This document shows positions 23,405 through 43,093 of a stretch of 64,000 nucleotides of DNA, one piece after another (positions within the stretch are counted from its first letter, which is position 1; every line of letters starts with the position of its first letter). The notes beneath the pieces were generated by a model. It was not told where the DNA came from and did no database searches. It saw only the letters and a program-made list of their open reading frames with translations. The stretch comes from Balneolaceae bacterium (GTDB lineage Bacteria > Bacteroidota > Rhodothermia > Balneolales > Balneolaceae), in contig JAEPQH010000019.1 of assembly GCA_017640605.1 (NCBI GenBank), positions 1 through 64,000 on the forward strand. The letters are read 5' to 3'. A program made the translations under genes and the position numbers.

Positions 23405-23411
23405 GGGCATT

Positions 23412-24668: not shown

Positions 24669-24682
24669 TGTAACCGTTTACA
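24669..24682. promoter_or_regulatory. LacI/CcpA-type operator, distal copy
   Basis: TGTAACCGTTTACA fits the LacI-family/cre consensus TGWAANCGNTNWCA at every fixed position and is nearly palindromic. It lies 199 bp upstream of the second operator in the same intergenic region, ahead of the glucan-utilisation operon. The regulator at 37805 is the natural candidate to bind it. Confidence 0.65.
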
Positions 24683-24858: not shown

Positions 24859-24890
24859 TTGAAAAAATGTAAGCGCTTTCAATATTTTAA
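24859..24890 (+). promoter_or_regulatory. Candidate promoter of the glucan-uptake operon
   Basis: TTG at 24859-24861 and TATTTTAA at 24883-24890, 21 bp apart, loosely fit the Bacteroidota promoter. The proximal operator (24868-24881) fills the spacer between them, the expected place for repression. Confidence 0.4.
24868..24881. promoter_or_regulatory. LacI/CcpA-type operator, proximal copy
   Basis: TGTAAGCGCTTTCA fits TGWAANCGNTNWCA fully, with the perfectly symmetric core AAGCGCTT. It is 44 bp upstream of the GTG start of the first operon gene and overlaps the candidate promoter spacer. Confidence 0.75.
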
Positions 24891-24924: not shown

Positions 24925-26613
24925 GTGCTACACTATGGTCGCATAGTTTTACTTTCCTTTCTACTTCTCGGATGTTCTCTTTCTGAAAATAATCCCGTTG
25001 ATGAAAACGTACTGGCTCGAATTGAAGATCATAAGGTTACTGAAACGCAGTTTGTAAATGCATTCAAGCGCAACTTTTATAAAGTGGGGCAAACCCTTCA
25101 GCCATCGCTAGACAACAAAGTTTCGGTTTTAAAGGAAGAGTTTGAAACTTATGTGTTAGCTGTTCACTCCGAAGATTTGGGAATCGCTAACGATGAGCGT
25201 TCAGACCTGGAATATGGTTTGCTGCAACGTAAAGTGTACGCCGAGGAATATTTGCTACGCGAAGTTTTAAGTAAAAAAAATGTAACCGAAGCAGACTTAA
25301 GAGAGTTATTCCTTCGCTTCAACTCAAGGGTTCGAGCTTCCCACCTTTATGCCAAAACCAAAGAAGAAGCTGATAGGTTGTATGAAAGGTTGTTAGCGGG
25401 TGAAAGTTTTGAAGCGTTGGCTGAAGAGGTTTTTACAAATCCATACTTGGCGAATAATGGCGGTGATATTGGTGAGTTTACAGTAGATGAAATGGATATC
25501 GCGTTCGAAAATGCTGCTTTTGCACTGAATGTTGGGGATGTCTCCGCTCCGGTAAAAACCCGACAAGGTTACAGCATCATCAAGCTAACCGATCGGTACA
25601 GCACTCCAATTCTCACCGAGTTTCAATACCAATCGCAGAAAAATAATTTGATGAGTTTGGCAGCTCAGCGAAAGGAAGAGATCGAAACACGAGCATTCAT
25701 CAGTTCTACAATAGATCGTTTAAATATCGATGACGAATTACTTGAAGAATTGTGGGTGGAGATAAACAATGATCAAGCCAACTCAATTGCACATAACTTC
25801 GAAGATCAAACTTTGAATTTCGAATTATCGAATTACAGCAACCAGCCAATTTCCAGCGTAGAGGGTTTTAGTTTTACCGTAGAGAATCTTAAGCAAGAAG
25901 GATTTTATACAGATCCTACGAACCTCGCTAACATCAATGATTTTGATAACTTCAAAGACTTTGTGCACGGTATAATATTTAGAACCTACATTGTTGATCG
26001 ATTTAGAGAAACTGAACATATCAATGATCCGCTGGTTCGCTCCTCCATCGAACAATCGTTTAATGTATACCTAAGCAACCGTGTAAGAACTCACATTTTT
26101 GATTCAATCACTTTTACTGAAGATGAGTTACGAGAAGAGTTCGAGAATAATCGTGAGATGTACGATTTCCCTTTAATGGTAAATACCGGAAGAATTGTAG
26201 TCGCAACAGAAGAGGAAGCTCTAAAACTTAAAAAAGAGTTGGAAGCCGGTGCAGATTGGGAACAAGCGGTAATCAATCACACATTGATAAACCAAGACTT
26301 AATGGTGAATGGTGAAATGGGGTTACAGCCTATTCAAAATTACGGCTCGTATGCATTCGATATCAAAGATCTTTCAGTAAACGAAATTACTGAACCATTA
26401 GCATTCGAGTATGGGCAGTTTGTGCTTTTCAAAGTGTTAGAGATAGAAGAACCAAGGCCATCGACATTCGAAGAATCCAAGGGATTGGTTGAGCGAGTTC
26501 TGAAAAATCAACAAATAGAAGAACGTCTAAAAGCTACGATCTCAGAAACCATGGACAAACACGATGCTGTACTTAATATCGAGAAATTGAAATCAATAAG
26601 AATTGAATTATAG
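24925..26613 (+). CDS. SurA-like peptidyl-prolyl isomerase lipoprotein
   Basis: A 562-residue lipoprotein: signal peptide with lipobox LLLGC (Cys17). The N-terminal helical chaperone-like region is followed by a parvulin domain at about residues 135-235 (RASHLYAKTKEEADRLYERL, NNGGDIGEFTVDEM, GYSIIKLTDR). A second, degenerate parvulin-like domain lies at about 415-510 (TGRIVVATEEEALKLKKELE, FVLFKVLEIEEPRP). This is the SurA/PpiD plan, whose members fold outer-membrane beta-barrels in the periplasm. The GTG at 24925 is the only usable start, with GGAG 8 bp upstream. It is the first gene of the operon and sits 11 bp before the TonB receptor, so a client relationship is suggested but not shown. 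Confidence 0.82.
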   Translation: MLHYGRIVLLSFLLLGCSLSENNPVDENVLARIEDHKVTETQFVNAFKRNFYKVGQTLQPSLDNKVSVLKEEFETYVLAVHSEDLGIANDERSDLEYGLLQRKVYAEEYLLREVLSKKNVTEADLRELFLRFNSRVRASHLYAKTKEEADRLYERLLAGESFEALAEEVFTNPYLANNGGDIGEFTVDEMDIAFENAAFALNVGDVSAPVKTRQGYSIIKLTDRYSTPILTEFQYQSQKNNLMSLAAQRKEEIETRAFISSTIDRLNIDDELLEELWVEINNDQANSIAHNFEDQTLNFELSNYSNQPISSVEGFSFTVENLKQEGFYTDPTNLANINDFDNFKDFVHGIIFRTYIVDRFRETEHINDPLVRSSIEQSFNVYLSNRVRTHIFDSITFTEDELREEFENNREMYDFPLMVNTGRIVVATEEEALKLKKELEAGADWEQAVINHTLINQDLMVNGEMGLQPIQNYGSYAFDIKDLSVNEITEPLAFEYGQFVLFKVLEIEEPRPSTFEESKGLVERVLKNQQIEERLKATISETMDKHDAVLNIEKLKSIRIEL

Positions 26614-26624
26614 GTGAACTAATA

Positions 26625-29513
26625 ATGATAAAGCTTAGATACTTTATTTTACTCGGTTTATTTGGGTTACTTGCCGTTTCGGCAAATGCTCAATCGGGTA
26701 AAATTCAAGGTAAAGTAACAGAAGTGGGTACAGGAGAGCCGTTAACAGGTGCCACTGTAGCTATTCAGGGTACAACAAGAGGTGTGCTGGTAGACATTGA
26801 TGGTAATTATGTAATTCTGAATGTGCCGCCGGGTACGTATACATTGGAAGCGCGTTTTATCGGATTTGCAGCCCAAGTAATCGAAAACGTAGTTGTTCGT
26901 ACCGATTTAACCACCGAAATAGACTTTGAGCTTCGCGAGGAAGTTTTTGAAGGTGAGGAAATTGTGGTACAGGCAGAACGTCCGGTTATTATTAAGGATT
27001 TAACAGCGTCAGAATCGAGAGTAAGTAGTGAAGAAATTGCTTCTTTACCGGTGCAGGAAGTTACCGATGTAATTCAACTGCAAGCGGGTGTTAATATTAG
27101 TAATAATGGTGCAATTCACATTCGTGGGGGTAGAGCTTCCGAAGTTTCTTACGTTGTAGATGGTATTCGTACTACCGATGATTACGATCGTAGCCAGGGT
27201 TTACGAATTGAAAATGAAAGTATTCAAGAGCTTCAGGTAATTTCGGGTACATTTAATGCCGAACACGGTCAGGCTATGTCAGGTATTGTAAACGTAGTTA
27301 CCAAAGCCGGGAATAACGATTATGAGGCTGATTTCAGAGTGTGGGGTGGAACATATCTTGTTTCACGGCCGGAATTGTATGATGGCATTGGCTACATAAG
27401 TAATGACGGAGTAGGTGATATCGACCCAACTCGCATGTATAACTTCAGTGGATCTTTATCAGGTCCGATTTTAAGAGATAAGCTTACGTTTTTTGTAACC
27501 GGTAGATACTTTGAAAATAAAGGATGGTTAACAGGTAGAAATGCTTTTAATGCACAGGGTCCCTTCTCAGAGACTATTAATATTAGTCAATTAGATTCAT
27601 ACAGAACTCCGTATGGCGAGACTTTTGATCCTAGCTTGCCATGGTTTTCGGTAGATACATTAGGTACACAAAATGTGGAAGTTCGTGATAACGGTAAACG
27701 CGACAGTTCGCTAGTTAACATGAACCGTTTTGCTTCCTACAGTTTTCAGGGAAATTTGCAGTATAGAGTATCCAATAGTCTGAAATTCAATCTTGTTAGT
27801 TCTTATGGAAATGAAGAGGGCAGAGGCTATAACCACAGTCGTAAACTTGTACCGGAAGGGGTAAATAGCTTTTATCGCGAGAACTTTTCTGTAAATCTTA
27901 AAACTACGATTACGCCTTCTGCTAAAACTTTCGTAACCATAAATACTGCAACTACTTACAATGGTTTTGAGAGTTATTTGTATGAAAATCTGTACGATCC
28001 AAGATATTTTAATTACGATCAGATTTCAGATATTGAAACCGTATTTGGGGGCATCACTCCGGGACAACCCTTCCAGTTTGATGTACTTGGAACCGATAAT
28101 TCAATTTTTGAGCGTTCAACACGTAGTTTTATCGCAAAAGCTGAGGTTTCAAGTCAGGTTAATGACCGCCATTTCGTAAAAGCCGGTATCAACTTCCAAG
28201 GCGATATTGTAAACTTCGAAAGCATCAACTTACAGCCATTAGGTAATGATGGTGTATCGCTACCTGATGGAGTACCCGATGATGTGCTTCCTTTTGTACA
28301 GCTTGGTTTACCATCCCTTGAAACAACCAACTACAACAGATTCGAAAGAAAACCATATAACTTTAGCAGTTACATTCAGGATAAAATCGAATATGATGAT
28401 TTTATTGTAAACGTTGGTTTACGATTCGATTTCTTCCAGCCTAATGCGCAAATACCAGCAGATCCGCGCGATCCCGACATCACAAATCCAATTCTTCAAT
28501 CGAATATTGATCTAACCAGAGAAGAGCGCGAAGAAATTTGGTGGGAAGATGTAGATCCAAAATTTCAATTGAGTCCAAGAGTTGGTATCTCATATCAAGT
28601 GTCTGATAAAGGTTTATTGTACTTTTCTTATGGATATTTCTTCCAGATGCCATCCTACGAATTCCTTTTCACAAACAGCCAGGTTTTATTACCTGAGAGT
28701 TCTGGAGTATTCGGAATTTTTGGAAATCCTGATTTAAAACCAGAGAGATCTACACAATACGAACTGGGGTCGAAATTTGAGATTATTGAAGGTACAGGTT
28801 TAGAAGTGACAGGTTTTTATAAAGATACACGTGATTACGTTTCTTCAGGTTTGGTTCAACCAACGTACTTAGGGAACGTTCGATATGCACGCTGGATCAA
28901 CCGTGATTACTCTATTTCTAAAGGGCTAACTGTTGCATTAAACCAATATGTAAGCCAACGCATTAATTTTGGGCTCGATTATACCTTCAATACCGTAGAA
29001 GGAAGTAACTCAGATCCCGCGGCCGAGTTTAACCAAGCCGTTTCTTCAGGTGATCTATCAGGAGAATCTTTAACAAAACTCATCCAGCCATTAGACTGGG
29101 ACAGAACGCATATCATTAACGGTACTATGTTCTATGCAGGTAAAAATCATGGCGCCAACGTTGCTGCACGGTTTTTGACCGGTACACCATACACGCCATC
29201 ATCGCCTATTGAGCAGCGTACTGGTCCGGTTGCTTCTGTGCGAGACTTACGTAACACTGCACGTTATCCTGTTCGATTTACCATCGATATAAACACCTTC
29301 TATAATGTGGATATCGCTGGGCAGGATATGCGAATTTTCCTCAACATTTTTAACATCTTAGATAGCCAAGTTGTAAACAGTATTTATTCAGATTCAGGCT
29401 CTCCTGATTTCCCTCTGATCATGCCGATTACATTCGATAATACGTATTTCCAAGATCCTTCAAGATTTGGTGAACCACGACGAATTCAACTGGGTATTCA
29501 ACTTTCATTTTGA
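26625..29513 (+). CDS. TonB-dependent outer-membrane receptor (glucan locus)
   Basis: A 962-residue receptor: signal peptide (cleaved after ...SANAQ, residue 23), a carboxypeptidase-regulatory-like domain at about 25-110 (IQGKVTEVGTGEPLTGATVA), a plug at about 120-230 (QAGVNISNNGAIHIRGGRAS, VVDGIRTTDDYD) and a long beta-barrel ending in RRIQLGIQLSF with a terminal Phe, as outer-membrane barrels do. It imports a ligand using TonB energy. Position before amylase and pullulanase genes and behind LacI-type operators points to maltodextrins or starch fragments. It resembles SusC in domain plan, but no SusD gene follows it. Confidence 0.9.
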   Translation: MIKLRYFILLGLFGLLAVSANAQSGKIQGKVTEVGTGEPLTGATVAIQGTTRGVLVDIDGNYVILNVPPGTYTLEARFIGFAAQVIENVVVRTDLTTEIDFELREEVFEGEEIVVQAERPVIIKDLTASESRVSSEEIASLPVQEVTDVIQLQAGVNISNNGAIHIRGGRASEVSYVVDGIRTTDDYDRSQGLRIENESIQELQVISGTFNAEHGQAMSGIVNVVTKAGNNDYEADFRVWGGTYLVSRPELYDGIGYISNDGVGDIDPTRMYNFSGSLSGPILRDKLTFFVTGRYFENKGWLTGRNAFNAQGPFSETINISQLDSYRTPYGETFDPSLPWFSVDTLGTQNVEVRDNGKRDSSLVNMNRFASYSFQGNLQYRVSNSLKFNLVSSYGNEEGRGYNHSRKLVPEGVNSFYRENFSVNLKTTITPSAKTFVTINTATTYNGFESYLYENLYDPRYFNYDQISDIETVFGGITPGQPFQFDVLGTDNSIFERSTRSFIAKAEVSSQVNDRHFVKAGINFQGDIVNFESINLQPLGNDGVSLPDGVPDDVLPFVQLGLPSLETTNYNRFERKPYNFSSYIQDKIEYDDFIVNVGLRFDFFQPNAQIPADPRDPDITNPILQSNIDLTREEREEIWWEDVDPKFQLSPRVGISYQVSDKGLLYFSYGYFFQMPSYEFLFTNSQVLLPESSGVFGIFGNPDLKPERSTQYELGSKFEIIEGTGLEVTGFYKDTRDYVSSGLVQPTYLGNVRYARWINRDYSISKGLTVALNQYVSQRINFGLDYTFNTVEGSNSDPAAEFNQAVSSGDLSGESLTKLIQPLDWDRTHIINGTMFYAGKNHGANVAARFLTGTPYTPSSPIEQRTGPVASVRDLRNTARYPVRFTIDINTFYNVDIAGQDMRIFLNIFNILDSQVVNSIYSDSGSPDFPLIMPITFDNTYFQDPSRFGEPRRIQLGIQLSF

Positions 29514-29530
29514 TTTTTTCGAGTATAAAA

Positions 29531-32500
29531 ATGATTAAAAAAACACTAATTACAGCATTTATTTTCTTCTTTCCGGCGCTGCTTTTCGCTCAATCGAGCA
29601 CATATGAGCCCAGTGAAGAGCGAGCTTCCTTCCAGCAAAGAAAAAAATCTATTATGGATGGTAACCGGCTTCGGGCAACGTACCAAAATAGTGGTCACGC
29701 CGGGAGATATGACGGGCAAAACACGGATGAAATTTTATTCGAATTCCCAATAAACACCGACAGAACATATATTTATTTTGTGTCGGCTGTAATGGGAGCG
29801 GAGGTAAATAATCAGCATCCTAATGCTTCGGAACCAACGTTCCCGATTATCAACGTTGCGGAAGGTAGAACTTCAAGTGAAGGCGATTCGTGGACAATGA
29901 ACCCAATTGAAGGCTATGCACGCCCTGTTGAAGACACGGGCGAAATGGCACGAAGCGACCGAGGCCCCGGATCTATTTTAGGTAATACCTGGCCGGATGT
30001 ATGGCCTGATAAACTGGAAAACGGTGGCGATGGTTGGGCCGGATCATGGAACGGATACTTCGGTCGTGATCAATTTAGTGCCGATCTGGAGTTTTATTAC
30101 AAAGCCGGAGATGACTTATACAAACGTTTTCTTGAAGGAACATCACGAAATCAACAATTCCAGCCTGATTCAACCGATCCTACTCGCGGTGGTTTAGGAA
30201 TTTTATTAGATACTAGAATTCTTGCTTGGTCGCAAACTCTCATCAATTCGACCCACTTTAATATTTTCGAAATTACTAACGATGGATCGCACGATTACCG
30301 CAAAGTCGCCTTTGGTTTATGGATTGCGGATTTGATTGTGGGGCAGGCTGATACGCCCGAGTTTGATGACCTTAGATCGATTGCATTCGTTGCTACTTCA
30401 CAACGAACACCGGCACCGGAGCAGTTTGACGGACCAATTGGAGAAATGGGTGTGAAATTCCTTGAAACACCCGGTAACTCCATCGATGGTATTGATAACG
30501 ACGGGGACAGCTATTTCTTTGATATGCAAAACTCGTTCTACGATTCTGATAATGCCGATATTTATCAGCCATTAACAAGTGCAGATGGTTTTTACACCCG
30601 CGATTCTCTCGTTAATGCAGTAATCCCAACATTTAGCATCACCTCATTTAGCGAAACTACAATTTGTCCGGGTGATAAAATTGTGCTTATCACCGACGAA
30701 GGAGATCGAATTATCTCTACTTATCCTGCGGATGGTGAATCAGTATATTCTCGCGGACAAACCATCACCTCTGATGGAAGTTGTTTAACGGTTACGGAAG
30801 ATTTCTTCCCTGATGTGTTAGCCGAAGATCCTTTATCTACCATTCACGTAGATCAGATTGATAATGATTTAGATGGTTTGATTGACGAAAACCGACCTAA
30901 TCACTTAAATAAAGCTACGTTCATTAATAATGCTGAGCAGATTGTAGCTGTACGACATATTAATTACATGAACTTTAATGTGGGTGATACTCTGCAACGT
31001 GGCTTAATTGTGCCGAATAGAGTGATTCGAGAGCGAATGGCTTCTGATGCTTCATTCAATACGTTGGTAACCGAATATCAGGATATGTTGCGAACGATCT
31101 ACGGAGCTACACGTTCTGAAGAGTTTTATAGTACCTACTACATCAATCAATTTACTGCGGCGCCAATGATAGATGAAGCTCGTGATGATCTTTTCGATAA
31201 CGATCAGGATTGGTTTACCGCTCAGGATGATGTTGGGATCGAAGGAGATGGTGATGAACCAAGTGCTGGGCAAAACGACGGGTTTCCAACCTCGGGTGGA
31301 ACTACTTCGTTTCCGGGAGAGCCAAACATCGATAAAACCGATGTTGCAGAGAGTGACCAACTTGGGGTTTCTCGAGCTAGAATTTTTGCAGCCGGATCAT
31401 TCCCAATTGCTCAGGACGCCACTGTGTGGAGAAACTTTTTGCTTCCGGGTGATTTCGAACGAACAGGCGAAGCCGGCCGTGATGATGATATCTTTGTTTC
31501 GTCTTCACTCTTCCCATTAGCGAAAGGGCAAACCGAACGTTTTGCAGTAGCTATAACCGGTGTGCAAACCAAAAGCCAGAATGCACAAGACGATCGTAAT
31601 CTAACAAACGATAATCTCGATCAGGCATTTACAGCTTATGATAATGATTATCAGTTTGCTGTTTCACCACAACCACCGATAGTTACGGCCGTTGCAAGCG
31701 ATGGAAAAGTAACACTGTATTGGGATGATAGTGCAGAAAGCTCGTTCGACCGATATTTACAGCGAATTACCGGTAATGGCTTCGATTTTGAGGGATACAA
31801 AATCTATCGTGCAACCGATGAATCCTTCGAAGAAGTGCTAAATATCACCGATGGTAGAGGAAATCCGCAGTTTAGAACTCCTCTCGAAACCTTTGATGTG
31901 ATGAACGGAATTAAGGATTACCATCCAACAGCGGTTAATGGAGTTCAGTATTATTTAGGTAACGATTCCGGTTTACAGTACACCTTCGAAGATACCACCG
32001 TAACAAATGGCCGACGCTATTTTTACGCCGTTACCTCGTTCGACTTTGGTGCCGAAGTTGCAGGAATTGCTCCATCCGAATCCAGAATTCAGATTAGTAG
32101 AAATCCGGATGGTTCTTTTGTGCTTGGGCCAAATGTTGTGCAAGTACGTCCTGCTGCAGAGCAAGCCGGATATGTTTCGCCAAAAAATCCAATGGCAACC
32201 ATCACCAGTGGATCGCCGGGTGGAAGAGTTGAAGTTGAAATGGTTGATCCGGTAGAACTACGGGCTGACAATGTTTACAGTGTAACTTTTAAGGATACAT
32301 TGATTGCAGGGCAACCCGGAAAACCGGATACGGTTAAAACCAAAAGCTTTACACTTCGCAATGTTACGGATGGAGGTAACGATACCTTAATCGTAGATTC
32401 TGAGAAGTTTAATGGCGAAGAGCTTCCCGTTTTTGAAGGTTTTAAAGTGAGAGTTATTAACGAAACCGAGCGTGGAGTAAATCAAGAGTTAACGGGATGG

Positions 32501-33424
32501 AATACCAATCGAGATGTTACCCTCAATAACTTTCAGTTTACCGTTGCAAATACTCGACAGAATATTGCCGATTACATGGTAGTATTTGATGATTTGGGCT
32601 TTGGGCAATCCAGCGATATTACTATCGAACGCGCCCCCGGTAGATTTCAAAGTTATCCATCGGTGCCAACCAACTTTAAGGTATTTAATAGAGCTACCGG
32701 CGAAGAAATTAAGTTCGCCTACCAATCGGTAACTCGTACACCGTCAACGAATTGTCAGTTTGAGCCTGCAGTTGGTGAAGTAGGAGAGTTTTCAGCTTAT
32801 CGACAAACTGGTCCTGGTTTATTCCTGCCTTGTAGCGGCGCACTTTCTGATAATATGTACTTTATCGAAGATTTCCGTGGCGAGGAAGATGTAGCCACCT
32901 ATCGAATTCGAATGGAAGTAATTACTGAAGAAGTTGATGACGAAACAGTAACAATCAGTGAAAATCCAGCCGCTGGCGATACCATCTATGTTACCTTGAA
33001 CAAACCGTTCATCGAAGGCGATGAATTCCGATTCAGAATTCAAGATGTAAACCAGCCTATGATAGATAATGAGCTGGCAAAAGAAGAATTGGAAGACATT
33101 AAAGTAGTTCCGAATCCTTACATCGTTTCCAACCCATACGAGATTAGTGCTACCAGCACGAACAGGCAGCAACGTAGAGAATTACACTTTACACATCTGC
33201 CCGTGCCTTCAACGCTTCGCATATTTACCGTCTCTGGCTTCTTAGTAGAAGAAATTGAAATCACCGACAACAATGTACGTCGTGTTGGTGGCAATTTTGG
33301 TGGGACCTACGTGTGGGATATGTTAACCAAAGACAATCTGGAAATATCGTATGGGGTCTATCTGTATCACGTAGATGCTCCGAATATTGGTGAAAAAACA
33401 GGCAAATTTGCAGTCATTAAATAA
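29531..33424 (+). CDS. Very large exported protein with Asp-rich repeats, FN3-like module and sorting-like tail
   Basis: 1297 residues from the ATG at 29531, where the signal peptide begins (MIKKTLITAFIFFFPALLFA); a TTG at 29510 overlapping the receptor stop would add seven residues. There are three calcium-loop-like segments near residues 318 (DGIDNDGDSYFFD), 439 (DQIDNDLDGLIDE) and 550 (DLFDNDQDWFTAQDD). A fibronectin-III-like segment lies near 713 (PPIVTAVASDGKVTLYWDD). The end, from KVVPNPYIVSNPYE near 1190 to GVYLYHVDAPNIGEKTGKFA, resembles T9SS C-terminal domains. The function is unknown. The position, directly after the receptor, is where susD would be expected, although it has no TPR-like SusD fold that I can see. 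Confidence 0.75.
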   Translation: MIKKTLITAFIFFFPALLFAQSSTYEPSEERASFQQRKKSIMDGNRLRATYQNSGHAGRYDGQNTDEILFEFPINTDRTYIYFVSAVMGAEVNNQHPNASEPTFPIINVAEGRTSSEGDSWTMNPIEGYARPVEDTGEMARSDRGPGSILGNTWPDVWPDKLENGGDGWAGSWNGYFGRDQFSADLEFYYKAGDDLYKRFLEGTSRNQQFQPDSTDPTRGGLGILLDTRILAWSQTLINSTHFNIFEITNDGSHDYRKVAFGLWIADLIVGQADTPEFDDLRSIAFVATSQRTPAPEQFDGPIGEMGVKFLETPGNSIDGIDNDGDSYFFDMQNSFYDSDNADIYQPLTSADGFYTRDSLVNAVIPTFSITSFSETTICPGDKIVLITDEGDRIISTYPADGESVYSRGQTITSDGSCLTVTEDFFPDVLAEDPLSTIHVDQIDNDLDGLIDENRPNHLNKATFINNAEQIVAVRHINYMNFNVGDTLQRGLIVPNRVIRERMASDASFNTLVTEYQDMLRTIYGATRSEEFYSTYYINQFTAAPMIDEARDDLFDNDQDWFTAQDDVGIEGDGDEPSAGQNDGFPTSGGTTSFPGEPNIDKTDVAESDQLGVSRARIFAAGSFPIAQDATVWRNFLLPGDFERTGEAGRDDDIFVSSSLFPLAKGQTERFAVAITGVQTKSQNAQDDRNLTNDNLDQAFTAYDNDYQFAVSPQPPIVTAVASDGKVTLYWDDSAESSFDRYLQRITGNGFDFEGYKIYRATDESFEEVLNITDGRGNPQFRTPLETFDVMNGIKDYHPTAVNGVQYYLGNDSGLQYTFEDTTVTNGRRYFYAVTSFDFGAEVAGIAPSESRIQISRNPDGSFVLGPNVVQVRPAAEQAGYVSPKNPMATITSGSPGGRVEVEMVDPVELRADNVYSVTFKDTLIAGQPGKPDTVKTKSFTLRNVTDGGNDTLIVDSEKFNGEELPVFEGFKVRVINETERGVNQELTGWNTNRDVTLNNFQFTVANTRQNIADYMVVFDDLGFGQSSDITIERAPGRFQSYPSVPTNFKVFNRATGEEIKFAYQSVTRTPSTNCQFEPAVGEVGEFSAYRQTGPGLFLPCSGALSDNMYFIEDFRGEEDVATYRIRMEVITEEVDDETVTISENPAAGDTIYVTLNKPFIEGDEFRFRIQDVNQPMIDNELAKEELEDIKVVPNPYIVSNPYEISATSTNRQQRRELHFTHLPVPSTLRIFTVSGFLVEEIEITDNNVRRVGGNFGGTYVWDMLTKDNLEISYGVYLYHVDAPNIGEKTGKFAVIK

Positions 33425-33430
33425 GTAGTC

Positions 33431-34459
33431 ATGAAATTTCAATTAACAATATTGTCCATTATTGTAGCATTTGCCTTCACCAATGTAGAAGTGGCAAAAG
33501 CTCAATCAGTAAGTAAAACAGGAACCACCGCCGGAGCTTTTCTTCAGATTCCGGTGGGTGCGCAGGCATCGGGCATGGGCGGGGCTGTAGCTGCTCATGT
33601 TAACGATGCATCTGCCATGTTCTGGAATCCGGCCGGTTTGGCGGATATAGAATCAAACGAGTTAATGGTAGAATATGCAGACTGGTTTGTGAATATTAAT
33701 CACAATTATTTTGGTATTGCGATACCTACAAAAAAAGGAGTAGCAGGCGTAAATGTGGTGGCATTAACCATGGGAGAATTCGAAGAAACAACCTACGATA
33801 ACCCCGAAGGTACAGGTAGAACATTCAGTGCTTATATGTTATCAGGCGGTGTTTCTTACGCTCAATACCTATTTGAAGGATTTAGAATGGGCGGAAATAT
33901 TAAGTTCGTGCACGAAAAAATAGCCGAAACATCTGCCACTGCTTTTGCTTTTGATGTAGGCACCATGTACAAGCTACCATTTAACGACATTCGATTTGGT
34001 GTAGCAATTACCAACGTTGGAACACAAGCTCAACTTGATGGAGATGGCTTAATAACTCCGGTTGATGTTGCCGACGAAATTGATGGCAATTATATTGCTG
34101 ATTCTAAACTCGCAACCGATGCTTTCAATCTGCCCATCAACCTTAAAGTTGGTTTTGCCGGCGAAGTAATCGACAACGATCAATTGCGGGCAACGCTGAG
34201 TATCGATGGAAACAGTCCTTCTGATAACGTGCAAAGTGTAAGTATTGGAACTGAAATTGCGTTTTTAGACGATTTATTTTTGATCCGTGCAGGCCTGCCT
34301 TACCTGGGTATGGAAGACCGGGTGCAAAAGTATAATTTTGGAGTGGGTATTAACCGCGGCTTCAACAGAAATAATTTGAAAATGCGATTCGGATATTCTC
34401 TGGAATCGTACAAATATTTAAACTCTGTGAATAGAATCAGTTTGCAGATTTTATTTTAA
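33431..34459 (+). CDS. PorV/PorQ-family outer-membrane barrel
   Basis: A 342-residue protein with a signal peptide (cleaved after ...VAKAQ). The start of the mature chain, AFLQIPVGAQASGMGGAVAA, then DASAMFWNPAGLADIE, is the hallmark of the PorV/PorQ family, FadL-like barrels that in T9SS organisms shuttle or attach secreted cargo at the surface. The rest is beta-barrel-like, ending in RISLQILF. It lies 6 bp after the large exported protein and 37 bp before a protein with a T9SS tail, so it may be a locus-specific cargo-handling paralogue. A substrate-channel role is the alternative. Confidence 0.82.
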   Translation: MKFQLTILSIIVAFAFTNVEVAKAQSVSKTGTTAGAFLQIPVGAQASGMGGAVAAHVNDASAMFWNPAGLADIESNELMVEYADWFVNINHNYFGIAIPTKKGVAGVNVVALTMGEFEETTYDNPEGTGRTFSAYMLSGGVSYAQYLFEGFRMGGNIKFVHEKIAETSATAFAFDVGTMYKLPFNDIRFGVAITNVGTQAQLDGDGLITPVDVADEIDGNYIADSKLATDAFNLPINLKVGFAGEVIDNDQLRATLSIDGNSPSDNVQSVSIGTEIAFLDDLFLIRAGLPYLGMEDRVQKYNFGVGINRGFNRNNLKMRFGYSLESYKYLNSVNRISLQILF

Positions 34460-34496: not shown

Positions 34497-37400
34497 ATGA
34501 ACAAAGCTACAAAGCTGTTAATGTCGATTTCTGTATTCAGCATGCTGTTTGCAGTTAGCGCATTAGCTCAGGATCCAACAGATGCTCCTCCTGCTCCAAC
34601 GCAAGACGAAGCAAATGTTATTTCGTTATTCAGTGATGCATACACTGATGTAACGGTTGACACATGGAGAACAAGTTGGTCAGCGGCAACCTTTAAAGAC
34701 ACAACCATTGCAGGTAATGCGGTAAAACGCTACACCTCTCTTGATTTTGTCGGTATAGAAACCGTTGCTAATCAGATTGATATAAGCGGAATGACACACG
34801 TCAATTTCGATTTATGGACACCAAACGCTACTACTTTCAGAATCAAAATTGTTGATTTTGGTGCAGATGCAGCATTTGGTGGAGGTGACGACGTAGAGCA
34901 CGAAGTTGCTTTTGAAAGCGTTGCACAAGGCGAGTGGACTACATACAGCATTTCGCTAGCCAGCATGACCGGTTTAACCACGCAAGGCAATATTTCACAG
35001 ATTATTTTCAGTGGATTGCCAACGGGTGGCGTAACTGCATTTATCGATAATTTATTCTTCTCGGATGAAGGTGTTATCAATATGGTAGATGCTCGCGCTT
35101 TAGATCTGGGAACCGAAGTAACTGTTGAAGGGGTATTAACCACTCCGGATTTCAACTTCTTTAATAATCAGTTCTTTATGCAAGATGCTACTGCCGGTAT
35201 TTCTGTTTACATCGATGGTGATGACGCGGTAGGTACCAACAGCGATGGAAATTCTCCATTTGCAGCAGGTGATATTGTACGAGTAACCGGTACATTAATC
35301 GATACTAATGGTTTACTCCAGGTTGAGTCAGATTCAACTAAGTACACTATTCTTAGCTCGGGTAATGCGTTACCTGCTCCTGTAACAATCACCGAAGCAG
35401 ACATTTCTCTAGATAGTAAATATCAGGGTATGCGTGTTACTTTAAGTACAGCTGCAATGTTAGCAGATGGCGAAACTTGGCCAGAAGATGCCCAAACCAG
35501 TTCGGGTGTTAATGTTGATGTTGTTGCAGGCGATTCTACCTTCACAATGCGTATAGATCGCGATGAGTCTTTCTATGATGGTGCACCAGCGCCAACCGAG
35601 AAATTCCAGCTTTCAGGTAACTTGGGTGCATTTTTCTCTCCACAAATCTTCCCATTTATCGAAGGTGATGTAAGAAATGCATACAAAGTTAACTTTACAG
35701 TAAATACCGCTACGCATCCGGATACGTTGATGGAGGATCATTTCATCCAGCTACGTGGTGCCATTAACGGATCTACCGGTGCATACTTTGGCGGTCAGGT
35801 AATCGATTGGAATTCTTCTTCTACCTTTGTTGCAGAAAACCAAGGTGGCGATTACTGGAGCATCGATAGCTACATGCTTGATGGTGATGCATTAACCTAC
35901 AAAGTTTGGTCTGGTTATGATGCTAACACTGGTTCTAACAATGGTGACGGTGGCTGGGAAATTACCGGTCCTGATCGTCCTACGCGTTCGTTCACAGTAT
36001 CAGCAGATACCATGGTAACTTTATGGTCAGAAAGTCTTTCTGCTCCATTCGAAACCAATGCCGATAGCGTAAGTCTTTTCTTCCGTGTAAATGTTGGCGC
36101 GTTCGTACAGGATGGTTCATTCGATCCGGCAAACGACAAAGTGGGTATTCGTGGAAACGACCAAGTATTCATGAATCCTTCTGATTGGAGTTCAACAGCT
36201 ATTTATCTTTCAAAAGAAGAGCGTGTAGCTGCTGACGGTACCCCAATCGAAGACGATAACTTATTCTATTCCGGTACAGTATTAGTAGACAATGAAGCTG
36301 CAGATACTTTAGGTTCTTTACCTTATAAGTTTGTATTAGAAACCGGATCCGGTGTTCTTTGGGATAACAAAGACGGAAACCAAGATGGTAACCGATTTAT
36401 CGATATACCTGCTTCAGATACAACTGTACATTGGGTGAATTTCCAAGGAAAAGCTCCAACCAATGCTCAAATTGTAACTGCAAATGTTACTTTTGAAGTA
36501 AGTACTGCTGTACTTGAAGTATTAGGTTACTTCGACTCAGGTATTGGCGATAAAGTTGTAGTTCGTGGTGAACCACCATTGGATTGGGGAACTAGCGACT
36601 TCAATACTGCTACATTCGATGATCAGGATGTATTATGGAGATTAACTCAAGAATTCACTAAAGCAGTAGGTTCATCATTCAAGTACAAGTACTTTATTGA
36701 ATATGATGCCTCTAGAAGCGATGCTAGCTCCGATAACTACATCGAAGCAGTAGCTGAAAGTGGAGACTTCGGTTACGAAGAACCGGTAACTACCGGTGGT
36801 GCCGATCGTTTCTTCGACTTTAGTGACGAAGTAACCCAAACTAAAGGTGTTCAGTATTTCAACGATGTGAACACAGGTGCCATTATCCAAGCGGGTAACA
36901 CTCCAAATGGAACCATGTCTGTTACATTTAGAATCGACATGACAGCTGCACTTACTGCAGATGTGCCTTTCCGTCCTGGAACCGATTCATTGTACATGCA
37001 GCTTGAATCTAAATTCACTGCATTAACAAACGGTTTCCGTTCAGGTGGTGGATATTTCGATGATATCACTGCAAACGGAACTGCAGCCGATATTGAATTC
37101 TTACGTTACACACCAGTTGATGGTGAGGACAATATTTACGAATTAACGCTAGACTTAGACCTCACTTCTGGAACCCTAAACGACTTCGGTTATGTAGTTC
37201 GTTATGGTGAGCCATTTAGTGATTACGAAAGCATGGTAGTGAACGGTGGCGGCTTTGCAGCCGGTCGACGTTTCTATCAATTCGTAGATCCATTATCAGT
37301 TGTTAACCTAGGTAACGATCCGTTTTTAGGTGAAGTTCTTCAGTCTCAATGGCCAGAAACCTTCACCATGAAAACTGTTGCTTGGGCTGAATCAGATCTA

Positions 37401-37733
37401 GAGTTCGATGTACAGCCAGATTACGCTGGTCTTGCAACTTCTTCTGATCTTGAGCCAGTTAAACCAGAAGCATTCAGTTTATATCAAAACTATCCTAACC
37501 CATTCAACCCATCAACAAACATTAGCTTTACGTTACCAAACGCAGCTGACGTACGATTGACGGTATACAATGTGCTAGGACAAGAAGTTTCTACACTAAT
37601 TAATGGCAAAACTCTGAACAGCGGTACACATACCGTTGCTTTCGATGCCAGCGCTCTGTCTTCAGGTATGTACATTTACCGTATTGAAGCGGGCAACTTT
37701 ACAAGCACTAAGAGAATGATGCTTATTAAGTAA
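34497..37733 (+). CDS. Multi-module cell-surface protein with T9SS type A tail, SusE/F-like in concept
   Basis: 1078 residues. Signal peptide (MNKATKLLMSISVFSMLFA, cleavage after ...LAQ). Residues 40-190 form a carbohydrate-binding-like beta-sandwich (ANVISLFSDAYTDVTVDTWR, MTHVNFDLWTPNATTFRIKI). Residues 195-390 look like an OB-fold module. Four similar modules then start near 398, 524, 661 and 806, each opening with a V-x-F-x-V/I strand and containing segments such as DKVVVRGEPPLDWG, recalling starch-binding modules. The tail from 988 (AFSLYQNYPNPFNPST) to ...KRMMLIK is a T9SS type A sorting domain. It contains no catalytic motif. I infer a surface glycan-binding role by analogy with SusE/SusF; no sequence homology to them is claimed. 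Confidence 0.72.
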   Translation: MNKATKLLMSISVFSMLFAVSALAQDPTDAPPAPTQDEANVISLFSDAYTDVTVDTWRTSWSAATFKDTTIAGNAVKRYTSLDFVGIETVANQIDISGMTHVNFDLWTPNATTFRIKIVDFGADAAFGGGDDVEHEVAFESVAQGEWTTYSISLASMTGLTTQGNISQIIFSGLPTGGVTAFIDNLFFSDEGVINMVDARALDLGTEVTVEGVLTTPDFNFFNNQFFMQDATAGISVYIDGDDAVGTNSDGNSPFAAGDIVRVTGTLIDTNGLLQVESDSTKYTILSSGNALPAPVTITEADISLDSKYQGMRVTLSTAAMLADGETWPEDAQTSSGVNVDVVAGDSTFTMRIDRDESFYDGAPAPTEKFQLSGNLGAFFSPQIFPFIEGDVRNAYKVNFTVNTATHPDTLMEDHFIQLRGAINGSTGAYFGGQVIDWNSSSTFVAENQGGDYWSIDSYMLDGDALTYKVWSGYDANTGSNNGDGGWEITGPDRPTRSFTVSADTMVTLWSESLSAPFETNADSVSLFFRVNVGAFVQDGSFDPANDKVGIRGNDQVFMNPSDWSSTAIYLSKEERVAADGTPIEDDNLFYSGTVLVDNEAADTLGSLPYKFVLETGSGVLWDNKDGNQDGNRFIDIPASDTTVHWVNFQGKAPTNAQIVTANVTFEVSTAVLEVLGYFDSGIGDKVVVRGEPPLDWGTSDFNTATFDDQDVLWRLTQEFTKAVGSSFKYKYFIEYDASRSDASSDNYIEAVAESGDFGYEEPVTTGGADRFFDFSDEVTQTKGVQYFNDVNTGAIIQAGNTPNGTMSVTFRIDMTAALTADVPFRPGTDSLYMQLESKFTALTNGFRSGGGYFDDITANGTAADIEFLRYTPVDGEDNIYELTLDLDLTSGTLNDFGYVVRYGEPFSDYESMVVNGGGFAAGRRFYQFVDPLSVVNLGNDPFLGEVLQSQWPETFTMKTVAWAESDLEFDVQPDYAGLATSSDLEPVKPEAFSLYQNYPNPFNPSTNISFTLPNAADVRLTVYNVLGQEVSTLINGKTLNSGTHTVAFDASALSSGMYIYRIEAGNFTSTKRMMLIK

Positions 37734-37804: not shown

Positions 37805-38794
37805 ATGGCATCAACCATTTACGATATAGCTGAAAAGGCAGGGGTGAGTATCGCTACCGTTTCAAGGGTGTTTAACCAAAGTAACAGCGTTTCTGAAGCA
37901 ACTCGCAAGAAAGTGCTTCGCGTTGCTGATGCGGTGGGTTATCATCCCCAAGCGTATGCTCAAGGCCTTGCCCGAAGTAAAAGTAACACGATCATGGCCG
38001 TGGTGCCTGTGATCTCCAATTACTTTTTTATGGAAGTTCTGGGCGGCATTCAGGATAAACTGAGTGAACAAGGCTATGAACTCACCATTTTTAATGTAAC
38101 TGCTGGCGAAAATCTTTTTAACGAGGTTGAACACGTGTTAAAACGTCGTTGGGCAGAGGGGTATTTATTTATTTCTATTCATCTTACCGACGATCAGTTT
38201 TTAAAATTAAAACGGTTCAATCTTCCTATTACATTAATCGACGAACATTACGAAGGTTTCGATTCAGTTTCGGTGGATAATGTACAAGGTGCTTATCGGG
38301 CTACTAAAACGCTTATCGAACATGGTTACCGGAAAATTGCAATGCTTTCGGCATTAAGCTCTTCGAAACCTATTCGCGATCGATTAGAAGGATACTGTAA
38401 GGCATTAACCGAACACGGAATTCCATTTGATGAAAACTACGTAGTGTCCGGTTCTTCATTTTATCGTGATGGTTTTACCGAAAAGGGCGGATTTGAAGCC
38501 ATGAAAGCGATGCTGAATATGCAAGATCCGCCGGAAGCCTGTTTTTGTGCCTCAGATATTCAAGCAGTTGGCGCTCTAAAAGCAATGGACGATTCCGGAA
38601 AACGTATCCCGTTAATCGGTTACGATGATATTGAACTATCCGAATACATTGGCTTAAGCACAATACGTCAACCCATGCGCGATATGGGCTATTTTGCTAC
38701 TCAGAATTTAATCGAGCGACTGAATAACGCCAATAAAGCTATTTCGCAGACTATTTATTCACCAGAATTCATACAACGTACATCAACATTTTAA
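37805..38794 (+). CDS. LacI-family transcriptional regulator
   Basis: A 329-residue LacI/GalR repressor. The helix-turn-helix is at residues 4-24 (IYDIAEKAGVSIATVSRVFN), with the hinge helix region (RKKVLRVADAVGYHPQAYAQ) next, followed by a periplasmic-binding-protein-like sensor domain (NTIMAVVPVISNYFFMEVLG, GYDDIELSEYIGLSTIRQPM). It starts 8 bp after a terminator and ends 1 bp before the amylase gene, so it is translated with the hydrolase genes. By context it should sense maltose or a maltodextrin and act at the two TGWAANCGNTNWCA operators upstream of 24925. Whether it represses or activates is not visible. Confidence 0.92.
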   Translation: MASTIYDIAEKAGVSIATVSRVFNQSNSVSEATRKKVLRVADAVGYHPQAYAQGLARSKSNTIMAVVPVISNYFFMEVLGGIQDKLSEQGYELTIFNVTAGENLFNEVEHVLKRRWAEGYLFISIHLTDDQFLKLKRFNLPITLIDEHYEGFDSVSVDNVQGAYRATKTLIEHGYRKIAMLSALSSSKPIRDRLEGYCKALTEHGIPFDENYVVSGSSFYRDGFTEKGGFEAMKAMLNMQDPPEACFCASDIQAVGALKAMDDSGKRIPLIGYDDIELSEYIGLSTIRQPMRDMGYFATQNLIERLNNANKAISQTIYSPEFIQRTSTF

Positions 38795-38795: not shown

Positions 38796-41696
38796 ATGCA
38801 AAACCCAAAAAAACTGTTCACTTTCACATCACTTTTTATAGTACTTGTAGCATTACAAACGCAGGTTTGGGCGCAAGTTGTCACGTTCTCGCCATCCTTT
38901 GCAACTTCCGAAGATTCAATGCGAGTTGTACTCGATGCTACTCAAGGAAATGAAGGCCTCGTAAATTTTGATGGTCGCGTTTACTTACACACCGGTCTGA
39001 TTACCAGCAAAAGTACCAGTGGTAGCGATTGGCAATATGTACCTTTTGGTTGGGAAACCAACGATGCAAGCGTTGAGGCAACGAATCTCGGAGATAACAA
39101 ATGGGCTTTTACATATAAACCATCTATCCGTGAATTTTTTGGTGTTACAGATCCTAACGAAGTTATCGAGCAAGTAGCCATTGTATACAAAGGAGTGAGA
39201 AATGGCTCAATTGTGGCCGAAGGCAAAGATGAAGGAAATGCCGACATTTTTATCGAATTAACAGCAGGGGAAGCTGCTGCTCGCTTCGTTACTCCTGACA
39301 GCGATTACGAGTTTCTAAAAAGTGATGAGAGCTTAGAATTAGTTGGTATTGGAACTGTTAATTCAGGTGATTTAAGTCTCGAATTATTTAAGAACGATGT
39401 ATCAGTAGCAACTACTTCTGATGATACGTTACGATTTACTTATGTACCAGAAGCGGGCGACACTGACATTGAATTCGATTTAGTAGCTTCAAATGGAGCT
39501 GCTCTTTCTGATACTGCTTCCTTTTTTGTAACTGTTCGTGCAAATGATGGGGAAGTAGCAGCAAGACCGGATGGTTTAGAAGATGGAATCACTTACAACA
39601 GTGATACTTCTGTTCAGCTTTCGCTATATGCACCCAATAAGGATTTTGTGTATGTGATTGGCGATTTTAACGATTGGACACCTTCCTCCGAATATTTAAT
39701 GAATAAAGATGTGCAAGGTGGTGATGTTTGGTTTTGGACAGAAATCGATGGGCTTACGGCCGGCGAGCAGTATGGAATGCAATATTTGGTTGATGGAGAA
39801 ATTAGAATTGCCGATCCATATTCTGAACTGGTACTCGACGAATTCAACGATCAATTTATTTCGGATGACGTTTTCCCTAATCTAAAACCATATCCTGCGG
39901 GTAAAACTTCACAAATGGTTGGGTTATTAACTCCCGGTGAAACCGAATACGTGTGGGAAGTAACTGATTTCGATGCACCAGATAACGATGAACTTGTAAT
40001 TTATGAATTACTGCTTCGTGACTTTATTGCCGACCACAGCTACGAAACCTTACTCGATACGCTTGATTATATCTCAAATCTTGGTGTAAATGCCATCGAG
40101 TTTATGCCTATCAATGAATTTGATGGCAACGAAAGCTGGGGTTACAATCCTGCATTTCATCTTGCGCTCGACAAATACTACGGCACACCAAATGCGTTCA
40201 AGCGTTTTGTAGACGAAGCCCATAAAAGAGGAATTGCAATAATTTTAGATGTGGTTCTAAATCACTCTTTTGGCCAAAACCCGTTAGTTCGACTTTGGAA
40301 TGAAGGCGACTTTGGTACTCCAACAGCTGAAAATCCTTATTTCAATCAAGTAGCCAAGCACGATTTTAATGTTGGGTATGACTTCAATCACGAAAGTTCT
40401 GCTACCCGGTATTATTCTAAGCGAGTAATTGAATACTGGCTGGAAGAATATAATGTGGATGGTTTTCGCTTTGATCTTAGTAAAGGATTTACTCAGAAAA
40501 ATTCTCTTGGAAACGTTGGATTATGGGGACAATACGATCAGTCTCGTGTTAATATCTGGTTAGATTACTACGCTCACACCAAAAGTATAAACCCGGAAGC
40601 GTATGTTATTCTGGAGCATTTTGCCGATAATAGCGAAGAAAAAGTACTTGCCGATGCAGGAATGATGCTTTGGGGAAATTCTAATCACGAATATAACGAA
40701 GCAACTATGGGGTATAACTCGAACCTTTCGGGAGTTCTATCTAGCTCAAGAGGTTTTCAGTTTGGACACCTTGTAAGTTATATGGAAAGTCACGATGAGC
40801 AATGGTTGATGTTCAAAAATATCAGTTTCGGTAACTCAAGTGGCGATTACAATATTCGTGAGCTTGGAACTGCACTCGACCGAATGGAACTCGCTGGTTT
40901 ATTCTTTTTCCCACTTCCTGGTCCACGTATGATTTGGCAGTTTGGTGAACTTGGTTACGGCTACGGCGATGATGGCGAGCAATGTTTAAGAGATTCTCCT
41001 GACTGTCCTGCAGCAGCACCCGGTAGAACAGCGAACAAACCGATTCGGTGGGATTACAACGAAGATCCGGATCGAAAAGATGTATACAATACCTGGGCGA
41101 ATCTTATTAACCTAAGAAGAAGTTCACCTGCTTTTACCCGACCTGAGAATGCTGATTATTCGCTGAATGGATCATTCAAATATTTCCGTTTAGAACATTC
41201 TGATACCGACGTAGTAGCTATTGGTAATTTTGGAGTTACGCAAACTACAAGAACAGTAGATTTTACAGAAGGCGGTGTTTGGTACGATTTCTTCAATACC
41301 ACAACTATTGATGTGAATAACGACACCAAGCAGGCCGAGTTTACCTTGGCACCGGGCGAATATCGCTTATTCACAACCAAAGAATTCAACAAATCGGTTT
41401 CATCAGAAATCGAAGTATCCGATGACGCACCAATGGCATACAACCTGTATCAGAACTACCCAAATCCTTTCAATCCATCAACAAATATTACTTTTGATGT
41501 AGCCAAGTCAGGATTTGTGAGTCTAGAAGTATTTAACATGCTGGGTCAAAAAGTTGCTGATTTAGTACAAGAGCCCAAAGCAGCCGGTTCGTATACCGTT
41601 CGTTTTGATGCAAGCGGATTGAGCAGTGGAGTGTATATCTATCGCTTGCGATCCGGCAATGCGGTTAAAACACAAAAAATGATGTTACTTAAATAA
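38796..41696 (+). CDS. Secreted GH13 alpha-amylase with CBM48-like module and T9SS tail
   Basis: 966 residues. Signal peptide to about residue 27 (...QTQVWAQ). After an N-terminal beta region, residues 268-350 look like a CBM48/isoamylase-N module (YVIGDFNDWTPSSEYLMNKD). The GH13 barrel runs from about 410 to 810 with all four conserved regions: DVVLNHSFG, GFRFDLSKG (nucleophile Asp560), ILEHFAD (acid/base Glu607) and ESHDEQ (Asp667). The tail (YNLYQNYPNPFNPSTNITF to ...MMLLK) is a T9SS type A sorting domain, so the enzyme should be at the cell surface or released. It would start starch breakdown outside the cell. It begins 1 bp after lacI. Confidence 0.93.
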   Translation: MQNPKKLFTFTSLFIVLVALQTQVWAQVVTFSPSFATSEDSMRVVLDATQGNEGLVNFDGRVYLHTGLITSKSTSGSDWQYVPFGWETNDASVEATNLGDNKWAFTYKPSIREFFGVTDPNEVIEQVAIVYKGVRNGSIVAEGKDEGNADIFIELTAGEAAARFVTPDSDYEFLKSDESLELVGIGTVNSGDLSLELFKNDVSVATTSDDTLRFTYVPEAGDTDIEFDLVASNGAALSDTASFFVTVRANDGEVAARPDGLEDGITYNSDTSVQLSLYAPNKDFVYVIGDFNDWTPSSEYLMNKDVQGGDVWFWTEIDGLTAGEQYGMQYLVDGEIRIADPYSELVLDEFNDQFISDDVFPNLKPYPAGKTSQMVGLLTPGETEYVWEVTDFDAPDNDELVIYELLLRDFIADHSYETLLDTLDYISNLGVNAIEFMPINEFDGNESWGYNPAFHLALDKYYGTPNAFKRFVDEAHKRGIAIILDVVLNHSFGQNPLVRLWNEGDFGTPTAENPYFNQVAKHDFNVGYDFNHESSATRYYSKRVIEYWLEEYNVDGFRFDLSKGFTQKNSLGNVGLWGQYDQSRVNIWLDYYAHTKSINPEAYVILEHFADNSEEKVLADAGMMLWGNSNHEYNEATMGYNSNLSGVLSSSRGFQFGHLVSYMESHDEQWLMFKNISFGNSSGDYNIRELGTALDRMELAGLFFFPLPGPRMIWQFGELGYGYGDDGEQCLRDSPDCPAAAPGRTANKPIRWDYNEDPDRKDVYNTWANLINLRRSSPAFTRPENADYSLNGSFKYFRLEHSDTDVVAIGNFGVTQTTRTVDFTEGGVWYDFFNTTTIDVNNDTKQAEFTLAPGEYRLFTTKEFNKSVSSEIEVSDDAPMAYNLYQNYPNPFNPSTNITFDVAKSGFVSLEVFNMLGQKVADLVQEPKAAGSYTVRFDASGLSSGVYIYRLRSGNAVKTQKMMLLK

Positions 41697-41734
41697 TATC
41701 CTTCACGTTCTAATTTACCTTCATGGAACTATGT

Positions 41735-43093
41735 ATGAGATTTACTAAAAAAAGTTGGTTGGCACTCTGTGTTTCGATGTTTCTTTTCATTGGATGCTCC
41801 GAACCTTCCACCGAAATACCAATAAGTAAAGTTGAACATCCGGAATGGAGTAAAAATGCAAGTATTTACGAGGTAAACATTCGACAATATACTCCTGAAG
41901 GCACGTTCAACGCCTTTAGGGAAGATTTGCCACGCTTACAAGCCATGGGCGTTGATATCCTTTGGTTGATGCCCATTCACCCAATTGGCGAAGAAAACCG
42001 AAAAGGTACGCTTGGTAGTTACTATGCAGTGAAAGATTTCAAAGCGGTTAATCCCGAATTTGGAACCGAAGAGGATTTTCAAGCGCTGGTGGATGAAGCC
42101 CATGATTTAGGTATGAAAGTAATTATCGACTGGGTAGCGAATCACTCTGCCTGGGATAATGTATGGACTGTAAACAAAGATTGGTACACCTTAGACGATG
42201 AGGGCAATTTCGTACCTCCGGTTGAAGATTGGAGCGATGTAATTGATTTCAATTACGATAATGAAGAGTTAAGAGCTGCTATGCTAGATGCACTGCTTTA
42301 TTGGGTTCGTGAATTTAATATCGATGGCTACCGCTGTGATGTGGCCGGAATGGTTCCTACTGATTTTTGGGTAAATGCCCACGAAGAACTGGATAAGATT
42401 AAGGATGTATTTATGCTTGCCGAAGATGGTGAGCCGGAGCTACTTATTGAAGCATTCGACATGAATTATGCATGGCAGTATGCACACGTAATTCGGGAAA
42501 TTGCTACCGGTGAACAAACCTTTGATGACTTAGACGCATTGTTTGCCAAAGATGCAGAGCGTTTCCCTCCAAATGGCTACCGAATGTATTTTACCACTAA
42601 CCACGATGAAAATTCTTGGAATGGTTCCGATACGGAACTTTATGGGCCAAATTTCGAAAATTTTGCGGTGCTTTCTGCTACGGTAGCTGGTATGCCGCTT
42701 ATTTATAACGGACAGGAATCTGGGTTGGATAAACGCCTCGAGTTCTTCGAAAAAGACGAAATTGAGTGGAAAGAGTATAATTACGAAGATTTCTATCGAA
42801 CACTGCTAACCATTCAAGAAACGAATGAAGCACTTTGGAATGGAGAATTTGGCGGAGACAGAACCCGAATCGAATCGCCTACCGGAACCTATGCGTATTC
42901 ACGCAAAAAAGATGGAAATGAAGTAATTGTGGCAATCAACATTACCGCTCAACCTGTTGAGATAACTGTTCCAAGTTGGGAATCATCTACCTACACAAAA
43001 TATGGGGTAACCGAAGGTGTTTTCAGTGCAGATAACCAATTGTACACCTTCGAATTGCCGGCTCACCGCTGGTTTATCCTGGCTACTAATTAA
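41735..43093 (+). CDS. GH13 alpha-amylase-family lipoprotein
   Basis: 452 residues from the ATG at 41735, which gives a compact lipoprotein signal (MRFTKKSWLALCVSMFLFIGC, lipid Cys21); the upstream ATG at 41723 adds MELC and is less likely. The catalytic barrel is complete: region I WVANHSAWDN, region II GYRCDVAG (Asp202), region III LAEDGEPE (Glu230), region IV TNHDENSW (Asp291). The short barrel without accessory modules resembles cell-associated maltodextrin-cleaving GH13 enzymes. As a lipoprotein it probably acts on oligosaccharides in the periplasm or at the outer membrane after the surface amylase. It follows that amylase closely, on the same transcript. Confidence 0.92.
   Translation: MRFTKKSWLALCVSMFLFIGCSEPSTEIPISKVEHPEWSKNASIYEVNIRQYTPEGTFNAFREDLPRLQAMGVDILWLMPIHPIGEENRKGTLGSYYAVKDFKAVNPEFGTEEDFQALVDEAHDLGMKVIIDWVANHSAWDNVWTVNKDWYTLDDEGNFVPPVEDWSDVIDFNYDNEELRAAMLDALLYWVREFNIDGYRCDVAGMVPTDFWVNAHEELDKIKDVFMLAEDGEPELLIEAFDMNYAWQYAHVIREIATGEQTFDDLDALFAKDAERFPPNGYRMYFTTNHDENSWNGSDTELYGPNFENFAVLSATVAGMPLIYNGQESGLDKRLEFFEKDEIEWKEYNYEDFYRTLLTIQETNEALWNGEFGGDRTRIESPTGTYAYSRKKDGNEVIVAINITAQPVEITVPSWESSTYTKYGVTEGVFSADNQLYTFELPAHRWFILATN

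Follow-up and report, generated by a model that had tools for sequence, protein, structure and literature searches.

A tandem PrsA-like parvulin lipoprotein heads a SusD-less TonB receptor operon in a Balneolaceae bacterium and accompanies related receptor cassettes across families

Several described systems resemble parts of the locus analyzed here. PrsA of Firmicutes is a lipid-anchored parvulin composed of an N-domain and one parvulin, while SurA combines an N-terminal helical region with two parvulins in the order N-P1-P2-C. BamM, BamJ, and BamK are PPI-fold lipoproteins of the Bacteroidota BAM complex (PMC12611786, PMC12578637), and PPI and SkpA are chaperone-fold structural parts of the SprA translocon (PMC10994853). 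The pairs SprB-SprF and PG1035-PorP are type B CTD cargos with a cognate barrel (PMC9143113). Finally, SusCDEFG unites a receptor, a surface starch-binding protein, a surface amylase, a regulator, and maltodextrin enzymes.

The window examined is a stretch of 64,000 nucleotides from a Balneolaceae bacterium (GCA_017640605.1, contig JAEPQH010000019.1, positions 1 to 64,000). As an earlier note on this DNA had read, a lipidated two-parvulin protein, hereafter the foldase, is encoded by the first gene of an operon, 11 bp before a TonB-dependent receptor (Table 1); the reading frame, the lipobox, the Pfam matches, and the AlphaFold model all agree with this description. The reading frame is genuine, with a GTG start codon, 562 aa, and the N-terminus MLHYGRIVLLSFLLLGC-SLSEN, which contains the lipobox LLGC with Cys17. 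A PPIC-type parvulin was detected at aa 143-223 (PF00639, 72.7 bits against a cut-off of 21.7), in addition to two PF13145 stretches, and PF00639 matched 41/41 members of the family. The AlphaFold model (pLDDT 84.7, from 11 sequences) shows two consecutive units, aa 29-226 and 308-508, followed by a long C-terminal helix. Each unit is made of a small strand pair, a helical segment, and a parvulin, the second parvulin (about aa 418-508) being weaker than the first. When profiles of the two halves were aligned with each other, they matched (hhalign 97.8%, E 8e-13, 191 columns), which confirms, at the level of sequence profiles, an internal duplication.

The nearest solved structures are those of PrsA and SurA. 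The top phmmer match is B. subtilis PrsA (4wo7, E 8e-21), parvulin 1 resembles a B. anthracis PrsA fragment (6xd8, TM 0.89 over the target, 39% identity), and SurA (1m5y) appears among the fold matches. The protein scores below the cut-offs of both NCBIfam models, SurA (44 bits, cut-off 394) and PrsA (87.6 bits, cut-off 343). Because of the duplicated halves and these nearest structures, "tandem PrsA-like protein" is a better name for it than SurA. "SurA-like", the label used previously, was imprecise, as the layout is [N-domain + parvulin] x2 rather than N-P1-P2-C; in addition, the second catalytic His is replaced by Ser. The likeness to PrsA lies in the lipid-anchored parvulin, but the foldase has two PrsA-like halves in tandem, resides in a Gram-negative envelope, is encoded by a receptor-linked gene, and has a noncanonical active site. 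It shares with SurA an N-terminal helical region and two parvulins; unlike SurA, it gives every parvulin its own N-domain, is usually a lipoprotein, and is specific to a cassette. The same genome has separate SurA-like genes, a tandem trio on another contig (C26, L015) with no receptor found nearby, consistent with the previous statement that housekeeping SurA genes are located elsewhere.

Table 1 Features of the foldase operon (positions in the window; "." marks features without strand)
Feature	Positions	Strand	Basis or remark
Second LacI-type palindrome TGTAACCGTTTACA, one mismatch	24669..24682	.	Sequence
LacI-family operator TGTAAGCGCTTTCA, exact	24868..24881	.	43 bp before foldase start
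Tandem PrsA-like parvulin lipoprotein (foldase), 562 aa, operon leader	24925..26613	+	ORF, Pfam, AlphaFold, profile comparison
Lipobox LLGC, predicted lipidated Cys17	24964..24975	+	Sequence and conservation
Parvulin domain 1, aa 134-226	25324..25602	+	Pfam, AlphaFold, profile comparison
Degenerate parvulin domain 2, aa 418-508	26176..26448	+	AlphaFold, profile comparison
TonB-dependent receptor (CarbopepD_reg_2 + Plug + barrel)	26625..29513	+	Below SusC/RagA cut-off
CTDbig, 1,304-aa secreted protein, T9SS-type C-terminal domain	29510..33424	+	Without its own Pfam match
PorV/PorQ-family outer-membrane barrel	33431..34459	+	NF033709, 174.8 bits, cut-off 90
T9SS type A cargo	34497..37733	+	Family profiles
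LacI-family regulator	37805..38794	+	Family profiles
T9SS alpha-amylase-family enzyme with CBM48	38796..41696	+	Family profiles
Alpha-amylase-family enzyme	41723..43093	+	Family profiles
MFS sugar transporter	43111..44631	+	Family profiles
Pullulanase-type enzyme (CBM48, GH13, SpuA_C)	44656..46962	+	Family profiles

Since an exact LacI operator precedes the foldase gene, this gene leads the operon, and the operator site suggests control by sugar. The earlier description of an inducible glucan operon gained support from this perfect operator and from the genes that follow the PorV-like barrel, namely those for a T9SS type A protein, a LacI regulator, a T9SS amylase, an amylase, an MFS transporter, and a pullulanase. 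The foldase-receptor, receptor-CTDbig, and CTDbig-PorV spacings are 11, -4, and 6 bp, and an in-frame ATG at 29531 is the likelier start of CTDbig. The operon and SusCDEFG are alike in their components; the former differs in having no SusD, a receptor under the SusC cut-off, T9SS-delivered surface proteins, and a foldase. The receptor reaches only 74 bits with the SusC/RagA model TIGR04056 (cut-off 368), no SusD match was found among the operon genes scanned, and the three SusD genes of the genome are on other contigs. Upstream, at 21858-24629, the window contains a tandem pair of rhomboid-protease genes, then ispG/gcpE. Because many Balneolota relatives have a gene run of matching sizes upstream of the cassette, the latter looks to be anchored at one ancestral site.

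CTDbig has a signal peptide, and the SprA translocon is encoded in the same genome. Its C-terminal domain resembles type A T9SS sorting domains (hhalign 95.3%, E 2e-8) while staying below curated cut-offs: neither TIGR04183 nor PF18962 matched CTDbig, and CHU_C matched 3/17 members. Nothing convincing was matched when the CTDbig profile was compared with the PDB, and the AlphaFold model (1,200 aa, 9 sequences) has a pLDDT of 39. The neighboring barrel is below the equivalog cut-offs of PorV (58.9/250) and PorQ (101.6/220). CTDbig and this barrel recall SprB-SprF and PG1035-PorP, in which a FadL-family barrel serves to export and anchor its particular large T9SS surface protein; however, these pairs have no described link to a TonB receptor or a foldase, whereas the C-terminal domain of CTDbig resembles type A and its barrel is of the PorV/PorQ type. 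In one complete genome (G031, L134 12202-17217), we found a tandem CTDbig-PorV-CTDbig-PorV duplication. Its two PorV-like proteins show 100% identity (98.5% at the DNA level), whereas the two CTDbig bodies share 33% identity and are closely alike only in the C-terminal domain, the last residues being nearly identical. Such a pattern would be expected of a barrel that recognizes the C-terminal domain of CTDbig, by analogy with SprF and SprB (PMC9143113). The assemblies of several genomes (L025, L026, L031, L035, L037, L038, L039, L041) are interrupted no more than about 300 bp from the 3' end of CTDbig; such breaks would be expected if a near-identical CTD/PorV repeat were nearby, as in G031.

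The family was surveyed by searches of relatives, of the class, and of the phylum, after which the flanks were read with family profiles; the survey profile was built partly from the surveyed loci, the phylum-level members being new to it. The closest named relatives are Balneolota. Rather than being usually unlinked to receptors, a possibility raised in the earlier note, the foldase recurs beside them. All 54 A-type members (54/54; 54 genomes, 19 families) are located directly before a TonB receptor, with a gap of -59 to +221 bp except for one over-extended reading frame. CTDbig is next wherever the locus extends far enough (48 near-complete), PorV follows in 39, and the remaining loci stop at contig or stretch ends; where the contig permits, the order is always foldase, receptor, CTDbig, and PorV-like barrel. 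An exact match to the operator TGTAAGCGCTTTCA precedes the foldase in 24/53 A-type loci (nearly all the Balneolota ones), 22-228 bp from the called start, and in 0/29 B-type loci. The T9SS protein, LacI, and T9SS amylase downstream recur in every Balneolota A locus read far enough. Elsewhere in the A type, counterparts of the T9SS type A cargo have starch-binding modules (CBM20; weak CBM53/CBM48), and more distant A loci retain such a protein and mostly an amylase; GH53 and/or cellulase-like genes occur instead in G298 and G358.

The 29 B-type loci mostly have the order receptor-CTDbig-PorV-foldase, with 2-5 kb separating PorV from the foldase in five variants. Two distant B loci (L124, L125) have the order receptor-PorV-CTDbig-foldase and a shorter foldase of about 470 aa. 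In the six C-type mannosidase loci, the foldase and the receptor-CTDbig-PorV triad are on opposite strands, about 5 kb apart. The genome studied here contains two further foldase loci. A B cassette (L013, contig C4, 769-9816) comprises receptor, CTDbig, PorV-like barrel, and foldase last, and no LacI-type operator was found before its foldase; a third paralog (L014/L154, contig C7) lies beside an alpha-mannosidase-like gene, as judged by eye, with a triad about 5 kb off on the other strand. The three foldases pair one to one with three CTDbig, despite the 29 Plug-domain receptors of this genome. A 1,234-aa reading frame that seemed to be a foldase fusion (L107) was discarded as a high-GC open-frame artifact.

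Overall, the triad or its visible part shares a locus with the foldase in 94/97 members examined; one exception is unlinked within about 20 kb (L052), and two are limited by contig ends (L051, L123). By a rough estimate, which rests on 29 Plug receptors in the genome studied and about 3,300 assumed genes, a gene picked at random would be followed by a receptor gene in about 1% of cases. Since the surveyed genomes are related by descent and linkage among relatives is not independent evidence, the weight of the survey comes from retention across families and from the rearranged orders, not from the raw count. Chance or hitchhiking linkage was rejected on this basis. The foldase clades and partner clades also match: A-type CTDbig are monophyletic (48/48 in one clade), and the A-type foldase clade unites all 54 members and one contig-end member, with modest support (0.69). 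The earlier proposal of a dedicated foldase is strongly supported with respect to the receptor system as a whole, given this linkage, the three arrangements, and the matching clades.

CTDbig was searched for in 15 genomes: the 12 that encode it also encode the foldase, and the three that do not also have no foldase. Additional CTDbig genes are present in many genomes, and 16/18 of these extra loci are receptor-CTDbig-PorV triads without the foldase; among the 18, a divergent parvulin lies close to one, and very weak matches occur at two others. These foldase-less triads (L165, L167, L169-L182), several per genome in the class, constitute a recurring SusD-less cassette. A requirement of the foldase for all triads was thus rejected, and, judged from gene content, the foldase is not an indispensable component of all such complexes. 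Because the triad is also found alone, it forms the core, with the foldase as an optional fourth gene tied to particular clades. Since many triads are without it, the barrels can be assembled without the foldase, perhaps by general SurA-like proteins.

In parvulin domain 1, His140 is retained and the usual second catalytic His is replaced by Ser217. Both histidines of active parvulins were sought in A-type foldases; the first is kept in 52/54, and the second is Ser in 52/54 and Ala in 2. B-type members keep the second in 25/29, with Gln often replacing the first (15/29). No recognizable catalytic residues were found in domain 2. To judge from Pin1, the second parvulin His may be dispensable for activity. 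Because the A-type active site is noncanonical and domain 2 is degenerate, isomerase activity seems doubtful, and the constant yet altered active sites suggest client binding more than catalysis.

The earlier note had also considered that the lipid anchor could make the foldase a structural part of the uptake complex. This idea lost ground, as the cysteine to be lipidated is absent in 9/54 A-type and 4/29 B-type members, all in an equivalent cassette. Thus, at least 13/83 A/B members have no Cys before the first strand, so the anchor is not essential, a result that counts against a role as surface lipoprotein for the family in general; a universal anchor, as in the BAM surface lipoproteins, was rejected. 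The foldase is like BamM, BamJ, and BamK in being a PPI-fold lipoprotein tied to outer-membrane protein assembly. However, those are surface-exposed and belong to BAM, BamJ being of the FKBP type, whereas the foldase is of the parvulin type and the lipid is missing in some members. As the cysteine-free members bear ordinary signal peptides, their products should be soluble and periplasmic. Where the Cys is present, the tether to the first strand is short (median 13 residues). Where an acidic export signal would follow the Cys, at +2 to +7, there is a mean of 1.44 acidic residues and no fixed motif.

It seems reasonably probable that the foldase is a periplasmic chaperone that is expressed together with its cassette and serves specifically to assemble the outer-membrane proteins encoded there. 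This reading draws on the constant A-type linkage, the persistence of the set in the B and C types, the co-occurrence with CTDbig, the matching clades, the operator before the foldase, the PrsA/SurA chaperone fold, the periplasmic cysteine-free members, and the tree distances. The foldase would usually be tethered to the membrane through its short lipid-anchored linker and would probably hold or guide its clients rather than act as a fast prolyl isomerase. Candidate clients are the receptor, the PorV-like barrel, and CTDbig; the barrels are likelier, as partial correlations of tree distances with the foldase (PorV 0.58, TBDR 0.34, CTDbig -0.17), which are weak and have no proper null, lean weakly toward them. 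The cassette itself would be an alpha-glucan importer without SusD, in which CTDbig, exported by the T9SS and retained by a PorV-like barrel of its own, probably acts next to the receptor at the place that SusD has in Sus.

Operon membership alone is not proof of physical interaction, and the receptor link could be merely operonic, with CTDbig as the client that the foldase keeps export-competent or hands to the translocon. This explanation, which overlaps with the preceding one, is possible, if on the unlikely side. It would account for the strict co-occurrence with CTDbig in the genomes tested and for the position of the B-type foldase at the CTDbig/PorV end; the T9SS translocon itself has a PPI (PMC10994853), and SprA is present in this genome. 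Most additional CTDbig genes in the class, however, have no foldase, and the partial correlation with CTDbig is negative. The foldase might also be a structural subunit of the mature outer-membrane complex, its parvulin folds serving as a scaffold. Chaperone folds are reused structurally in SprA-PPI-SkpA (PMC10994853) and in BAM (PMC12611786, PMC12578637), and the nearly invariant altered active site of the A clade and the short tether would fit such a use, but members without a lipidation site and the common foldase-less triads make it unlikely. The resemblance to T9SS PPI and SkpA is that of a chaperone-fold protein on a machine that also uses PorV; those belong to one general translocon, whereas the foldase gene is repeated with each receptor cassette.

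That the foldase is an ordinary SurA/PrsA paralog, placed in the operon as a general envelope chaperone for times when glucan is present, appears very improbable. Its Pfam and PDB matches are indeed general foldases, and general paralogs exist in this genome. Nevertheless, linkage has persisted across 19 families, through changes of gene order, and in three receptor clades, the active-site residues are clade-specific, and the housekeeping paralogs of the class fall outside and have no receptor linkage.

The components of the cassette are each of a known kind. In the literature searched, no description was found of their combination, in which a tandem-parvulin foldase is bound to a cassette whose SusD-less receptor has a T9SS partner; this absence is not proof of novelty. 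More broadly, and tentatively, there may be a class of TonB glycan importers across Bacteroidota (in the broad sense) in which a giant surface protein, delivered by the T9SS and held by a private PorV-like barrel, takes the place of SusD, a subset also having a dedicated tandem-parvulin chaperone for building the complex. The recurring receptor-CTDbig-PorV triad looks like SusD-free glycan capture, linking the T9SS to nutrient import. Outer-membrane chaperones are generally viewed as general services; with a foldase that tracks one type of receptor cassette across many families of a phylum and, in one gene order, under the same sugar operator, it becomes possible to address directly why certain outer-membrane machines require a helper of their own.
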